Of a stretch of DNA of 64,000 nt, positions 48,966 through 55,990 are shown one piece after another. The stretch lies in the NCBI RefSeq assembly GCF_019967995.1, contig NZ_CP065377.1:1922001-1986000 (forward strand), read 5' to 3'. The notes below the pieces were generated by a model. The model had not been told where the DNA came from. It saw nothing but the letters and a program-made list of their open reading frames with translations, and made no database searches. Each line of letters begins with the position of its first letter. The stretch's first letter is position 1. This DNA comes from Faecalibacterium prausnitzii (GTDB lineage: Bacteria > Bacillota > Clostridia > Oscillospirales > Ruminococcaceae). Both the position numbers and the translations under genes were made by a program.

Positions 48966-49811
48966 TCAGATCAGCCCCAGCGCTGCAAATTCCCGCGCAA
49001 TGCCGTCGTCGGTGACGGCGGGGCAGATGCGATCACAGCGTTTTTTCAGGTTGTCTGAGCCGTTGGCCATGCAGACGCTGATGCCGACAACGTCCGTCAT
49101 CTGCAAGTCGTTGTCGCTGTCGCCAAAGCCGATGGTATCGGCCAGCGAGCAGCCCAGATGATTGCAAATGGCCCGGATGCCGCTGCCCTTGTTGAATTTG
49201 CGGTTGATGAGTTCTCCGTTCACGATGCCGCCGCCCTCGTCGCCAAGGCGGGATTCGCAGAAGACGAACTGGTCTTCATACTGCCGCTTTACCTCCGTCA
49301 GGCAGGCTTCGTTGGGCGCAATGAAAACGATCTTGTAGACCGGCTCGCCGTGGTATTCCTCGATGGGGCGGATGGTCATCCCGAACTCCATCATCTTCCG
49401 CCAGCGCTCGGCCTCGCTGTTGGTCTGGCCCGGCTTTTTGGGAAAGAGGTTGGCGAACCGCTCGATCATTTTGATGCCGCCATACGTATCGTCCCGCACT
49501 TCCAGTGTGCACTCGGCCCCGCATGATTGCAGCGCCGCCCGCAGGCCGCGCACCTGCTCCGGCTCCATGGGGAGGTCCACCAGGACCTTTCCCTCACAGC
49601 CCACATAGCCGCCTGCCGAGCAGACGAAGCCGTCGAACCCGTAGTGGAAGAGCGGTGCGGTCATCCGGAGGTTCCGCCCGGTGCATAGAAAGAGCTTGTG
49701 CCCGTTGGCGCGGGCGCGGCGGAGAGCCTCCACCGCACTGTCCGGCACGGTCATCTCACCCGGCGGCAGCAGGGTGCCGTCGATATCCAGAAAGATCAGT
49801 TTTTGTTTCAT
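48966..49811 (-). CDS. Cof-type HAD-IIB hydrolase
   Basis: A 281-residue phosphatase. Motif I is FLDIDGTLL (nucleophile Asp at 9), motif II is LCTGR, the cap domain occupies about 85-190, motif III is KFNKGSGI and motif IV is IGFGDSDNDLQM. Cof-type enzymes dephosphorylate sugar phosphates, nucleotides or cofactors; specificity is not readable. It overlaps the HEPN-like gene by 4 bp (ATGA), and its last 61 bp occur again at 48642-48702. Confidence 0.95.
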   Translation of the reverse strand: MKQKLIFLDIDGTLLPPGEMTVPDSAVEALRRARANGHKLFLCTGRNLRMTAPLFHYGFDGFVCSAGGYVGCEGKVLVDLPMEPEQVRGLRAALQSCGAECTLEVRDDTYGGIKMIERFANLFPKKPGQTNSEAERWRKMMEFGMTIRPIEEYHGEPVYKIVFIAPNEACLTEVKRQYEDQFVFCESRLGDEGGGIVNGELINRKFNKGSGIRAICNHLGCSLADTIGFGDSDNDLQMTDVVGISVCMANGSDNLKKRCDRICPAVTDDGIAREFAALGLI

Positions 49812-50620
49812 TTTCCCATCCCCATCCAGCGGAAGAGCAGGCCCAGCACCAGCATAGCCAGCAGCAGGCCCAGCACCGCGTAATTCGTGCGGGGCGTCCG
49901 GCTGCGTCTGCCGCCCCCCTGTTTGCGATTCGTCGTGTTTTTGCGGGCCGTGCCGTTCCGGCCGCCCGAAGTGCGGCCCGCGCTGCCGGAACGCGGTCTG
50001 CGGTTGGCCGCAGTGCCCGAACCCGACCCGTTCCGCTGGCTGGCGTTCCGGGCTTTTCCGGTGCTGCGCGTCTCCTGCCCCTCCGGCTGCGATGCCCTGG
50101 CGACGGGTTTTCTTGCCCCGCAGCGGTCCAGAAATACCTCCGCCTGCCGGTAATACTGCTCCAGCTCACTGGTGCGCAGGGCTGTGCCCGCATAGCCCTC
50201 TTCCAGCGCCTCCACGGCCTCGTTGAAGAGGATGGCCGCCTGGGTCCCGGCGGTGCGGTCCGATGCGTGTGCGGCCTCGTTGCGGGCCGTGCGCACCGCG
50301 TTGCAGGCGCGGCGGGCAGCACCGGGGTGTTCGGTATTGCCCAGCAGGTCCAGCGGATGGGCGGCGTCCTTTTCGGGGTCCAGCAGCACCCGCATACACA
50401 GGGTGGTGTCCAACTGGCTCCAGCTCGTCCTGCCCGAAAGGTCGGGCATCCGCTCGTAATACTCCGGGCTCTCCTGCTGGCGCTGGGCGATGTGTTCCAG
50501 CAGGGCGTTCAGGCTGTGGGCACCGGGCTTTCGCTCCCAGTGCCAGCGCAGCAGCTTGCGGCTGATCTCGTCGCAGGCTGTTTTGATCTCAAATGCCACT
50601 TGCAGTGTTTCGTCTGGCAT
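49808..50620 (-). CDS. HEPN-like (Swt1-type) domain protein with C-terminal membrane anchor
   Basis: A 270-residue protein. The N-terminal 165 residues are helical, with a SWSQLDTTLCMRVLLDPEKD segment and the sequence VRTARNEAAHASDR (about 109-122), which provides an R-x4-H HEPN signature (R113, H118). This fits the Swt1-like HEPN group. A strongly basic Arg/Gly/Ser/Thr-rich linker follows (about 175-245), then a C-terminal membrane helix (YAVLGLLLAMLVLGLLF). HEPN domains are often ribonucleases, but others only bind nucleotides or partners. The ATG follows GGGAGG. A terminator separates it from the upstream gene; it is coupled to the HAD hydrolase. Confidence 0.7.
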   Translation of the reverse strand: MPDETLQVAFEIKTACDEISRKLLRWHWERKPGAHSLNALLEHIAQRQQESPEYYERMPDLSGRTSWSQLDTTLCMRVLLDPEKDAAHPLDLLGNTEHPGAARRACNAVRTARNEAAHASDRTAGTQAAILFNEAVEALEEGYAGTALRTSELEQYYRQAEVFLDRCGARKPVARASQPEGQETRSTGKARNASQRNGSGSGTAANRRPRSGSAGRTSGGRNGTARKNTTNRKQGGGRRSRTPRTNYAVLGLLLAMLVLGLLFRWMGMGK

Positions 50621-50645
50621 AGTATCCTCCCTTGAGAAAACCAAA

Positions 50646-50680: not shown

Positions 50681-51805
50681 TTACATCATGAACTGATAGT
50701 ACACAAAGCCCCACAGCGCGATGCCGGCGCAGAGGATGGCCGTGAGCGGCGGCACCCAGCGGATGAGCGTTTCGGCCACGCCGTCGCGGGGCTCGGTCTG
50801 CTCTTCCTCTTCGGCATCCTCCGGCTCCGCCGGGCGAACGGTCTCCCGCCCTCTGGCCGGGATGACGCGGGTCCCCTCGTCGTCCGCATGGGCCGGGCTG
50901 GTTTTGCCGGGAAATGCCGCACGGGTGGAAGCATCCAGCACACGGGTGCTCTCTGCATCCGGCGCGTTCTCCAGCGGCGGCGCAAAGGAAGCAGGCCTGT
51001 CCACTTCCTCAGCCGAAGGCCGCAGGGTCGTGCGCGGCGGCATCACGCGGGTGGCCTCCGCATCCGGTTCTGTCCGGGGCGGCACACTGCCCACGATGCG
51101 GGTCGGCTCTTCCGGCGGGACCGGGGCAGCGCCCACAACGCGGGTGCGCTCGTCCGGCTCCGTCTGCACAGGCCGCACCGGCTCGGCGGCGGGCACAGGC
51201 TCCTTCTTTTCCGGCTGCAACAGGGTGTTCAATGCGTTTTGCAGCAGGATGCGGTCGCAGCCGCACTCGGTGCAGTAAACGGTGTCTTCTTCCTTCGGGT
51301 GGAAGGAACCGCAGGCGCAGTACCAACCGTTCTCGAAGACCTGGGGCATATACTTGAGGCCCTGACGGTTCATCCGGGCTTCCAGCGCCTTTTGCAGCTC
51401 CGGACTCAGGCGGCGCGGGGCGGGCAGGCGGACGCGCTTGATGGCGTCCAGATGCACGACCTTTTTGCCGCTGTAAACATTTCGGAGAGACACATCCACG
51501 CTGGTGATGGCCTTCTGGGTCACGAACACCGCATCGTCCATGCCGAAGCTCTCGCCGGGCTTGACCTCGATGTCGCGGTACTCGAACTGGTCCTCACAGA
51601 GGATGACGCCATCCACGCCCTTGCACTTGAAATGGATCTCCAGTGCGGTCAGGGTCACGCGGGAAATGTTCTTAAAGGTCAGGCAGACCGCATGGTCGCC
51701 GCTGGCCTCGCCCTTGAGCAGCTCCACGCAGACGAACTGCACCGGGCTGCCGGGAGTGTAGTAATTCGCTCTTGTCCGTGCGACCGGATCAAAATTTTCC
51801 TCCAC
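50681..51805 (-). CDS. Membrane-anchored zinc-ribbon protein with five E-x-T-R-[VI] motifs
   Basis: A 374-residue protein of unrecognised family. Residues 1-135 form a beta-rich domain (FVCVELLKGEASGDHAVCLTF). A zinc ribbon follows with C163/C165 and C178/C181 (WYCACGSF and YCTECGCD). Residues 200-345 are acidic, Pro-rich and disordered-looking, and hold five copies of E-x-T-R-[VI] with a hydrophobic residue next (threonines 221, 235, 252, 287 and 312). One membrane helix ends the protein (about 350-370). It lies 21 bp after ftsH and so probably shares the rplI-ftsH transcript. The motif suits phosphothreonine docking to FHA domains; this is inference. Confidence 0.8.
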   Translation of the reverse strand: MEENFDPVARTRANYYTPGSPVQFVCVELLKGEASGDHAVCLTFKNISRVTLTALEIHFKCKGVDGVILCEDQFEYRDIEVKPGESFGMDDAVFVTQKAITSVDVSLRNVYSGKKVVHLDAIKRVRLPAPRRLSPELQKALEARMNRQGLKYMPQVFENGWYCACGSFHPKEEDTVYCTECGCDRILLQNALNTLLQPEKKEPVPAAEPVRPVQTEPDERTRVVGAAPVPPEEPTRIVGSVPPRTEPDAEATRVMPPRTTLRPSAEEVDRPASFAPPLENAPDAESTRVLDASTRAAFPGKTSPAHADDEGTRVIPARGRETVRPAEPEDAEEEEQTEPRDGVAETLIRWVPPLTAILCAGIALWGFVYYQFMM

Positions 51806-51826: not shown

Positions 51827-53962
51827 TTATTCTTCGCTCGTCGGAGCATCCTGCTCCGGGATGAATGCTTCACCGAGCTGGGCATTCTCGGCCTGCTCGG
51901 CAGGTTCTGCCGGTTCGGCCGGCTCAGCAGGCTCCACCGGGGCCGTCTCGACCGGAGCCGATGCCTCCGCCTTGGGTTCGTCCCCGTCACGCGGGGACAG
52001 CTTGCCGCCCGCCATCACGGTATTGAACTCCTGCTCGTTGAGCTTTTCACGCTCCATCAGGGCCTGTGCCAGTGCATGCAGCTGGTCGATGTGCTCGGTC
52101 AGGGTGCGGCGGCAGGTCTCGTAGGCCTCGTCGATGATATCGCGCATCTCGCTGTCGATCTCGGCGGCAGTCGTCTCGCTGTAGCCTTTGCCCTGGCCGA
52201 AGTCGCGGCCCAGGAAGGTCTCCTCCTGCGAGGTGCCGTAGACCACCGGGCCAAGCCGCTCGGAGAAGCCGTACTTGGTGATCATCTGGCGGGCGATGTT
52301 GGTGGCCTGCTGCAGGTCGTTGGAGGCACCGGTGGAGATGTCCTCCAAAATCAGCTGCTCAGCCACACGGCCGCCCAGGCTGGACACGATGTCCTCGAAC
52401 ATTTCGCCCTTGGTCACGTAGCTGCGGTCCTTTTCGGGCAGATACATGGTGTAGCCGCCTGCCTGACCGCGCGGGATGATGGTGATCTCATGCACACGGG
52501 GGTGGTGCTTGCAGTAGAAACCCGCCACCGCGTGGCCTGCCTCGTGGTAGGCCGTGAGCTTTTTCTCTTCGGGGGTCACGACGCGGCTCTTCTTTTCAGG
52601 GCCTGCCATGACCTTCATGGATGCCTCCTCGATATCCTCCATCGTAATGGCCTTGCGGCTCCGGCGGGCTGCCAGCAGCGCGGCCTCGTTGACGAGGTTT
52701 TCGAGGTCTGCACCGGCAAAACCGGCGGTGCGCTGGGCAATGACCTTCAGCGACACATCCGGGGCCAGAGGCTTGTTCTTGGTGTGGACCTTCAGGATCT
52801 CTTCACGGCCCTTGACGTCCGGCAGGCCGACATAGACCTGACGGTCGAAGCGGCCGGGGCGGAGCAGCGCCTTATCAAGGATGTCGGCACGGTTGGTAGC
52901 CGCCATTACGATGACGCCGTCGTTGGCCTCAAAACCGTCCATCTCGACCAGCAGCTGATTCAGGGTCTGCTCGCGTTCATCGTGGCCGCCGCCCAGGCCG
53001 GCGCCGCGCTGGCGGCCGACCGCGTCGATCTCGTCGATGAAGATGATGCAGGGCATGGTCTTCTTGGCCTTGTCGAACAGGTCGCGCACGCGGGAAGCGC
53101 CGACGCCGACGTACATCTCCACGAAATCCGAGCCGGAGATGGAGTAGAACGGCACACCGGCCTCACCGGCACAGGCGCGGGCCAGCAGGGTCTTGCCGGT
53201 ACCCGGAGGGCCCACGAGCAGGACGCCGTGGGGGATGCGGGCACCGAGGGAGTTGAACTTGTCCGGGCTCTTGAGGAACTCGACGACTTCCTTCAGCTCT
53301 TCCTTCTCCTCGTCCTCACCGGCCACATCAGCGAAGGTCGCGGTCTTCTTGTTCTCATGCTCATCCTTGACCTTGGCTTTGCCGACGTTCATGATGCCGC
53401 CGCCACCGGCACCGCCCCGCATCATGGAGAAGAGCAGGAAACCGGTGCAGCCCAGCATCCCCAGATAGAACAGGATCTCCATCCAGGGGATGGTCTCCTT
53501 GAGGGTGGTGTAGTCGTAGGTCATCGGTGCGTCGGGGTTCGCCGCATCGTAGGAAGCGATATATTTGTCCACGTTCTCAATGAAAACGTAGGCATAGGGC
53601 AGTTTGTAACGGACGGTCACAGTGCCGTCGTCGTTCTTCACCGCGCCGACGGAAGCCGCCGAGGAGGGGGAGAACATCCCGCTGAGCAGGCCGCCGGCAG
53701 CCTGCGTGGTGCCGGCCGCGGACGAGGTGTCCGGCAGGGCCAGGTCACCCTCCTTCAGCGTCAGGGTGATGATGCTGGTGTTCCGGTCCAGCGTGAAGTC
53801 CGTGACCTGATTGTGCTCAAAGTAATGCACCACGGTGGAGTAGCTCATGGTCGAGCCGCTCGTGCTGCTGCCGCTGGTGCCCAGCACCGACCAGATCATC
53901 AGCACAGCCGCCAGAGCCAGCGCCAGGATCAGGGGGTTAAAGCGAGGTCGTTTCGGTTGCAA
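51827..53962 (-). CDS. ftsH: ATP-dependent zinc metalloprotease FtsH
   Basis: A 711-residue membrane AAA+ protease. Two membrane helices (about 10-28 and 150-170) flank an extracytoplasmic domain. The AAA domain has Walker [15 protein letters not shown], Walker [12 protein letters not shown] and the second region of homology [20 protein letters not shown]. The zinc protease site is [11 protein letters not shown] (HEAGH). The C-terminal tail is long, acidic and contains repeated [10 protein letters not shown]. It degrades unstable membrane and cytosolic proteins. hpt lies directly upstream, as in Bacillus. Confidence 0.97.
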
Positions 53963-53990: not shown

Positions 53991-54539
53991 TTATTTTTCG
54001 TAGACAGCGGGCTTGAGCACGCCGACATAGGGCAGATTGCGGTATTTCTCATCGTAGTCCAGGCCATAGCCCACCACGAACTCGTCCGGCACCTGATAGC
54101 CCTCGTAGTCGGGCTGGATGTCGGCCTTGCGGCGGCTGGGCTTGTCGAGGATGGTGCAGATCTTCACGGAGTTCGGATTGCGCATCTTGAGCATCGGCAC
54201 CAGGTTGGACAGGGTGACGCCGGTGTCGAGGATATCCTCCACGATCAGCACATCCTTGCCGGAGAGGTCGCCGTCCAGATCCTTGATGATCTTGACCAGG
54301 CCGCTGGAGGTGGTGTTGCTGCCGCCGTAGCTGGACACCACCATGAAGTCGATGCTGCACGGGATGCTCACCGCCCGCATCAGGTCGGCCATGAAGACCA
54401 CCGAGCCCTTCAGGATGGAGACGAGGACGAGGTTTTTGCCCTCGTAGTCTTTGCTGATCTGGGCGCCCAGTTCCGCGACCTTGGCCTTCAGCTGTTCTTC
54501 GCTGACCAGAACTTTCTCGATATCGTCGTGCATACTCAT
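53991..54539 (-). CDS. hpt: Hypoxanthine phosphoribosyltransferase
   Basis: A 182-residue purine salvage enzyme joining hypoxanthine or guanine to PRPP. The PRPP loop is [14 protein letters not shown] (about 100-113), and [14 protein letters not shown] and the C-terminal [20 protein letters not shown] are conserved. The tilS-hpt-ftsH order is a standard Firmicutes arrangement. The start overlaps tilS by 4 bp (ATGA). Hypoxanthine released by DeoD can be recovered here. Confidence 0.97.
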
Positions 54540-55990
54540 TGTTGTTCCTCCATTTTTTGCGCTTCCATCTGCAAGACGTTTTCACTGTCCGCCGTGGGAG
54601 CCAGCCCGTCGGCAAAGCCTGCACCGCAGACCCACACGACCTCGCTCCCCGCCGCAAGCAGCGGCAGACGGTCTCGTTCTTCGGGCGGGATGCCCGCTTC
54701 GTTCATCCATTTGCGCAGCTCTTTGCGGATGCCGCGTCCCGCCGGGCGGAACGTATCCCCCGGCTGGCGGCAGCGCAGCGTGAGCGCAGAATATAACATT
54801 ATTATTCTAGCATAATCTGCCTGATTTTTTAAGTCTTTTTTATGAACACCCTGTGTTTTTTCTTGAAAACCGCCCGGAATCTGCCGGGCGGCGAGCATCC
54901 AGCCCCCCGGAAGGGCGATCTCCAGCGGTCCTGCCGGGTCAAACGGCAGCGGGAGCACCGCAGCCGCCGGGTCCTCCGGAGCTGCCGCGGTGGGCATTTC
55001 CTCCATCCAGAGCACTCCGCCGCCCGCACAGAAGCGGACGCTTCCGGTCAGCTGGACGGCCCCGCTCCCCTGCTCCACCAGCGCGCAGAGCAGGCGGATG
55101 TATTTTTCCTCCGCGTCCCGCACCGGGGCCACCAGACTGTGCAGGGCAGCTTCCAGGATCAGCGGGTCGGCCTCCTGCAGCCCTTCCAGCCCCCAGACGG
55201 GCCGGCCGCTCTGCAGCGCATACCGTGCCCCCGCCGGGAGGGCGGGCGGCAGCAGGACTTCCGCGTCTTCCAGCAGCTCTTCCGCCCGCTGTGCAAAGTA
55301 GGCATCCGCGCGGGCGGCCTTTTCGCAGAAGCGGGCGAAATTTTCCTCCGCCGCCTCGTTCACCGAGCGCAGGGCCGGCAGCGCCGCGTGGCGCAGCCGG
55401 TTGCGGGCGTAGGCATCGGAGGCGTTCGTCTCGTCCGTCACCCAGCGTTGGCCGCATGCCGTGCAGACCTGCTCGGTCTCCGCGCGGGTCAGGCAGAGCA
55501 GCGGGCGGCAGAAACCAGGGCGGCTGGGCCGGATGCCCGCTGCGCCGTGGAGACCGGCCCCCCGCGCCAGCCGGAACAGCAGCGTCTCGGTCTGGTCAGT
55601 AGCAGTATGGGCGGTGGCGACCGCATCTATCCCACCGGCCCGCAGAGCATCGAAGCAGGCATAGCGGAGCTTCCGCGCCCAGTCCTCCCCCGGATGCGCC
55701 GGAACGGCAGCACCCACGTCAGCCGGATGGAACACGCGCAGCGGCACATTCAGCCGGGCGCATTCGGCGCGGACAAAGGCTTCGTCCCGGTCGGCGGGCT
55801 CTCCCCGCAGGCCGTGGTTCACATGGCAGGCCGTCAGCTCGTAGCCGAACACCGGCTGGATCCGCAGCAGCAGCCGAAGCAGCGCCATGCTGTCAGCCCC
55901 GCCCGAAACGGCGGCGCACAGCCGCTGCCCCGGCGCGAACAGCTTGTTTTCCTGCGCGAAGGCGCGCACTTTTTCCACGATCTCGTTCAT
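54536..55990 (-). CDS. tilS: tRNA(Ile)-lysidine synthase
   Basis: A 484-residue enzyme that converts C34 of the CAU anticodon of one tRNA-Ile to lysidine, needed to read AUA. The PP-loop is [17 protein letters not shown] (about 25-41), with HVNHGLRG and [31 protein letters not shown] and the C-terminal TilS domain ([15 protein letters not shown]) complete the family pattern. The ATG at 55990 overlaps the dnaB stop codon by one base (TGATG). Codons are GC-rich throughout. Confidence 0.95.

Follow-up and report, generated by a model that had tools for sequence, protein, structure and literature searches.

Along the disordered linker of a membrane protein encoded behind ftsH, a short threonine motif recurs five times, which raises the question of whether these threonines are phosphorylated and what would read them. 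The gene lies in a 64,000-nucleotide stretch of the Faecalibacterium prausnitzii genome (hereafter the window), and its product, referred to here as the scaffold, had been predicted to be a docking platform for a Ser/Thr kinase and FHA proteins. Many Firmicutes use PASTA kinases, and the array bears on the way in which bacteria lacking FHA domains read the signal of such a kinase. As set out below, the protein probably serves as a platform for phosphorylation or docking.

The scaffold protein and its locus

The coordinates originally given for the gene are correct, and its strand, which had been left unstated, is minus (Table 1). The protein had no match in Pfam, NCBIfam or PADLOC searches. 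A zinc ribbon and a membrane helix, both part of the original prediction, were borne out: the pattern CxCG...CxECG spans C163 to C181, with cysteines that do not vary in alignments A1 (21 rows) and A3 (30 rows), and the helix occupies residues 342-373. The linker is likewise disordered as proposed, with AlphaFold2 pLDDT values of ∼85-96 across the N-terminal beta-sandwich and of <50 nearly throughout residues 206-341. As a tail-anchored protein, the scaffold would face the cytoplasm. A Foldseek search returned nothing at E <= 0.001, and among the matches listed the weaker ones share only the common Ig-like arrangement, with FHA absent, an absence that excludes nothing; a PDB sequence search with alignment A3 gave no match.

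Table 1. Positions of the scaffold, its parts and the upstream genes, numbered along the window.
Feature	Coordinates	Strand	Remarks
Scaffold gene	51805..50681	-	374 aa, GTG start
N-terminal Ig-like beta-sandwich, residues 1-128	51422..51805	-	
Zinc ribbon, residues 161-184	51254..51325	-	C163, C165, C178, C181
Disordered acidic linker with motif array, residues 199-341	50783..51211	-	pLDDT
Motif 1, E-R-T221-R-V-V	51134..51151	-	
Motif 2, E-P-T235-R-I-V	51092..51109	-	
Motif 3, E-A-T252-R-V-M	51041..51058	-	
Motif 4, E-S-T287-R-V-L	50936..50953	-	
Motif 5, E-G-T312-R-V-I	50861..50878	-	
C-terminal hydrophobic helix (predicted tail anchor), residues 342-373	50687..50782	-	prediction, alignment
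ftsH (AAA + M41)	51827..53962	-	Pfam PF01434, PF00004; 21 bp upstream of scaffold
Genes we take to be hpt and tilS	53991..55990	-	part of conserved run dnaB-tilS-hpt-ftsH-scaffold

The scaffold is present in 30 of 247 sampled genomes, representing 13 of the 126 genera of Ruminococcaceae. Its position behind ftsH, noted originally for the window, holds across genera: of 32 loci examined in Faecalibacterium and elsewhere in the family, 29 have ftsH immediately before the scaffold (all but L096, L097, and L098), mostly within the full run dnaB-tilS-hpt-ftsH-scaffold. Downstream of the acidic-linker scaffold lies a gene (49808-50644, minus strand) whose product has a basic, Arg-rich linker and a C-terminal hydrophobic stretch. 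Thirteen of the 14 Faecalibacterium loci (all but L100) have this gene, and it was not found at the remaining 18 loci. Its product contains an RNEAAH stretch and a weak, below-cut-off match to DUF4145 (E 0.068), which we take as hints of a HEPN domain.

Conservation and confinement of the threonine motif

The five E-x-T-R-[VI]-hydrophobic motifs occur exactly as described, at T221, T235, T252, T287, and T312. Shuffling the linker 2000 times gave a mean of 0.006 strict motifs and a maximum of one. Across 53 non-redundant homologous linkers, taken out of 151 (delimitation failed for 12 of the 163 scaffold sequences, which were left out), the strict motif occurs 126 times, compared with 0.11 in composition-keeping shuffles, and the wider T-R-hydrophobic pattern occurs 184 times, compared with 11.0. 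The corresponding S-R-hydrophobic pattern occurs four times against 7.2 in shuffles, and there is no sign of Ser substituting for Thr. The five copies differ in their x residue, in their Arg and Val/Ile codons and in their spacing (14, 17, 35, and 25 residues), and therefore do not represent a fresh tandem repeat of DNA. In 33 copies from eight scaffold genes (window 50861-51151 and L042-L049), the Arg codons are CGC (17), CGT (10), and CGG (6), and the Val/Ile codons vary too; the Thr codon is ACC in all 33, a codon used for 12 of 22 other linker threonines and for 72 of 95 elsewhere in these genes.

The original prediction had proposed weighing conservation of the motif against the linker background, and this comparison, run here, shows Thr and Arg retained in a fast-changing linker, with no replacement by Ser. 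Homologues of the scaffold numbered 1236 at E <= 0.001. Each of the 77 proteins inspected carries three to 10 copies, every one with Arg at +1 (77 out of a set of 121, the others being P0003-P0046, which are >=97% identical). In A1, the N-terminal domain, zinc ribbon and transmembrane segment are nearly constant and linker blocks come and go, while the motif cores stay: residues E233-R236 of motif 2, as well as T312 and R313 of motif 5, are identical in 21/21 rows, and P234 and T235 are identical in 30/30 rows of A3. By eye, the acidic residue at -2 in A1 is at times Asp and rarely another residue. Among the 53 non-redundant linkers, at least three strict copies occur only in the F. prausnitzii-like clade, the remainder having none or one. 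Inspection by eye found the forms GGTRAFE, QETRLFT, and GATR in chicken-associated Faecalibacterium metagenome-assembled genomes, approximately two copies (e.g., DxPTRM, EEPTR) in most other genera, and DGTRMF or no motif in a few deep members.

Outside the scaffold, the motif is nearly absent. In the genome that holds the window (hereafter the host genome), a DNA pattern covering E-x-T-R-[VIM]-x, and also the form with Ser in place of Arg, has 27 matches, compared with 22 in the reversed control; five of the 27 fall in the scaffold gene, and the other 22 are single matches that form no second cluster. Some of these singles sit in long frames, one of which presumably encodes MurG. The narrower pattern [DE][EQ]PTR[VIM] has 21 matches in 16 of the 30 scaffold-positive genomes (13 in the reversed control), and 20 of the 21 lie within the scaffold. 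The sole other carrier is a membrane protein of G058 with an acidic N-terminal stretch (L174, around 1501), which contains EEPTRVM and KQPTKAF and looks P-type-ATPase-like by eye. The array is absent from the FHA loci of relatives (L030-L041), and among the loci examined, many with partial genes, clustered T-R motifs outside scaffolds were seen only in the kinase of G251. A conserved, multi-copy array of this kind, its motif nearly restricted to one protein of a gut commensal, offers a bait for the missing reader.

PASTA kinases and their juxtamembrane segments

The kinase postulated in the original prediction has a candidate: beside a PP2C gene, the host genome encodes a PrkC-type kinase that has three PASTA domains, and a kinase is present in all 30 scaffold-positive genomes. 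The activation loop of the host PrkC (L001 412-2298, minus strand), SRAENQLSGGKAMGS, is without Thr. Its juxtamembrane segment, PDEIPEKVV, has Glu in the place of the motif Thr. The host genome additionally encodes a zinc-ribbon PASTA kinase-like protein (L002 601-2298, minus strand) in which HRD is changed to HRG. The HRD aspartate is replaced (HRG, HYG, HQG) in 16 of 21 such proteins (L137-L156 and L002), the other five being unreadable by the patterns used; the protein is likely a pseudokinase and is a candidate partner of the scaffold.

Kinases of the family often carry a comparable site in cis. The 120 kinases listed as closest to the G182 kinase include 119 readable ones, of which at least 63 show the pattern [PA]-T-[RK]-hydrophobic in the juxtamembrane segment (48 found by script, plus 15 with DEPTRCMPA, which lay outside the script's expression), mostly of the form [DES]xPTR[YFC][IVM]. 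A loose form, T-[RKHQI]-[YFILVMC]-[FIVYM], occurs in ∼32 of 54 readable scaffold-negative kinases (33 were scored, that of L214 falsely) vs. four of 22 scaffold-positive ones, a difference for which the Fisher p of 9e-4, uncorrected for phylogeny, is descriptive, the expression having been picked after viewing the segments. The strict PTR-x-hydrophobic form shows no such difference (4/52 vs. 3/22), and the imbalance therefore rests on the looser pattern. The scaffold-positive kinases come from 22 of 23 loci that could be read, in 22 of the 30 genomes; the scaffold-negative kinases comprise 54 of 64 readable with the loose pattern and 52 with the strict one, from 69 genomes chosen out of the 217 with no scaffold match, most of them taken as negative because they are not among the 30 positives. 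In the L236 kinase, the scripted hit is at the wrong site and GSTRYF lies further on.

The four scaffold-positive genomes with the loose kinase motif are G182, G251, G071, and G086. Six of the other scaffold-positive genera that were read have P-[ESAD]-[RK] at the kinase site and three have no recognizable site; in Faecalibacterium, two of the four kinases show PEK there, one PAK, and one PAG. In G182 and G251, which belong to one genus, PrkC has the sequence [DE]EPTRCM...[GD]RTRVTG beside its membrane helix, and the scaffold frames, of 215 aa, end just after the zinc ribbon, with neither linker nor transmembrane segment. Their congener G071 retains the scaffold linker and transmembrane segment (QQTRVL); instead of the pair, one DPTRYI is present in its kinase. 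The contrast of G182 and G251 with G071 constitutes a natural experiment, the kinase rather than the scaffold being the carrier of the motif in the former two; the gene for the short scaffold may be in decay, and a single event may underlie the uneven occurrence of the motif in kinase and scaffold. In g63 (L080, L135), Thr motifs occur in both proteins.

C. difficile PrkC (PMC9674922) and pneumococcal StkP (PMC12077195) are reported to be phosphorylated on threonines of the juxtamembrane segment, and PknB recruits the FHA protein FhaA through its juxtamembrane domain (PMC6180346). In C. difficile the enriched phosphothreonine motif is GxT (PMC9674922), and the seven juxtamembrane phosphothreonines of StkP misfit its own predicted substrate motif (PMC12077195); sites lost on PknA depletion have acidic residues at -1 and -3 to -6 and a hydrophobic one at +3. 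These preferences fit the scaffold motif loosely.

Possible roles of the array

Our preferred reading, to which we assign a probability of roughly one half, is that the scaffold is a multi-copy, tethered version of the PASTA-kinase juxtamembrane Thr site, phosphorylated by PrkC, reset by PP2C, and gathering or releasing a partner near FtsH. The scaffold would have taken over and multiplied the membrane-proximal Thr site that the family's kinases often carry in cis. PrkC would phosphorylate the array threonines and PP2C would reverse this modification; once phosphorylated, the array would then gather or release a partner at the membrane (most other genera have about two copies, the F. prausnitzii-like clade at least three). 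This would take place next to FtsH, the protease encoded just upstream, and any effect on FtsH might connect that protease to an envelope-sensing kinase. Counted against this reading are the loose fit of published site preferences, the host kinase, with no activation-loop Thr and with Glu at the juxtamembrane place, the occurrence of motifs in both proteins of g63, the possibility that the G182/G251 scaffold is decaying, and an imbalance that was measured with an after-the-fact expression, is uncorrected for phylogeny and may go back to one event.

Among the best-matching titles of a literature search, none concerned the scaffold protein, its motif or the Faecalibacterium phosphoproteome. The scaffold resembles the PASTA-kinase phosphosites of PknB/FhaA, StkP, and C. 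difficile PrkC in placing Thr in a segment beside a transmembrane helix, and shares with the family's own kinases a similar [DE]xTR-hydrophobic juxtamembrane pattern, but it is a tail-anchored protein distinct from the kinase, it carries several copies of the motif, and no FHA partner was found. GarA/OdhI is a kinase switch capable of self-binding, and its E-T-T-S motif lies in a disordered stretch apart from the folded domain (PMC5448819). The scaffold motifs are similarly placed; GarA, however, is an FHA protein, whereas the scaffold is membrane-tethered and its N-terminal domain is predicted to be Ig-like. CwlM, a PASTA-kinase substrate of envelope control (PMC6180346), and ReoM, which acts on ClpCP (PMC7286690), invite comparison with a scaffold that may be a kinase substrate linked to the envelope and to proteolysis. 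Unlike CwlM and ReoM/IreB, the scaffold has an FtsH rather than a ClpCP neighborhood and a multi-copy array, and no sequence relation was seen.

Multisite phosphorylation may also act with no reader at all, the array being a charge switch that alters linker extension or membrane proximity. This doubtful reading accommodates the acidic linker and the drift in copy number and spacing, but a charge switch needs neither constant Arg and hydrophobic residues nor the exclusion of Ser. It is unlikely that a partner such as FtsH or the zinc-ribbon PASTA kinase-like protein docks on, or recognizes, the motifs regardless of phosphorylation: the place of ftsH directly upstream at most loci and the loss of the HRD aspartate in the readable kinase-like proteins agree with such docking, which leaves the choice of Thr over Ser and the likeness to kinase juxtamembrane segments unexplained.

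A bolder and unlikely proposal is that the reader is part of the scaffold itself: its Ig-like domain or its zinc ribbon would bind the motif within one chain or on a second one (and, in G182/G251, on the kinase), leading to clustering or self-inhibition. Such self-reading would explain why the motif is so rare in other proteins, why no FHA domain is needed, and why a linker-less scaffold coexists with a motif-bearing kinase. Against it, Ig-like domains are, to our knowledge, not established as phosphothreonine readers, and the AlphaFold2 linker, with its low pLDDT, shows no sign of a docked motif, albeit in a model that cannot represent phosphate. A precedent is GarA, whose FHA domain binds its own phosphothreonine (PMC5448819). 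In a broader version, also unlikely, the Thr array and the kinase juxtamembrane segment would be exchangeable carriers of one FHA-free docking code, possibly read by the Ig-like/zinc-ribbon part of the scaffold, which would then be an unrecognized phosphothreonine reader tied to the ftsH run. Of the options left, reading of the motifs by the scaffold's own N-terminal part is the boldest, and the structure model lends it no support.

Docking of FHA proteins on the phosphorylated motifs, as originally envisaged, is now very unlikely. FHA ligands have an acidic residue at -2, a hydrophobic one at +3 and a strict requirement for Thr, all of which the motif matches, and FHA domains were detected in 14 of the 30 scaffold-positive genomes. 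They were not found in the other 16, nor in 10 of the 23 well-complete scaffold-positive genomes, nor in G182 or G251, the two genomes with the kinase motif pair, and only five of 24 same-genus relatives had a match, leaving 19 with none. Given this patchiness, FHA cannot be the general reader. The host genome, a single contig that is 99.98% complete, contained no FHA domain in a profile search even at E <= 10, although a very divergent one could escape; the same search was positive in six to eight of 14 control genomes. FHA is thus unlikely to read the motif in the host, and of the kinase and FHA partners sought in this genome, only the kinase was recovered. Two candidates were rejected: a below-cut-off match to the FHA-like PF16697 (E 0.186) covers profile positions 7-42 only, and three host matches to the FHA-FtsW fusion of G017 start at query residue 232 or later, i.e., in its later part only. 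The same-genus genome G005 has five FHA matches in ∼10 kb (L031, L039-L041), beside a gene that is PP2C-like by eye; this group is an accessory cluster.

That the constant Arg is itself the modified residue, a phosphoarginine mark for ClpCP, is hardly credible: the +1 Arg of motif 2 scarcely varies, which speaks for the idea, but Thr is equally invariant. Elsewhere in the host genome, a CRISPR array (L023 1-3017; G000:C1:2384606-2387622) comprises 44 repeats of ∼33 nt, spaced 66-70 nt.
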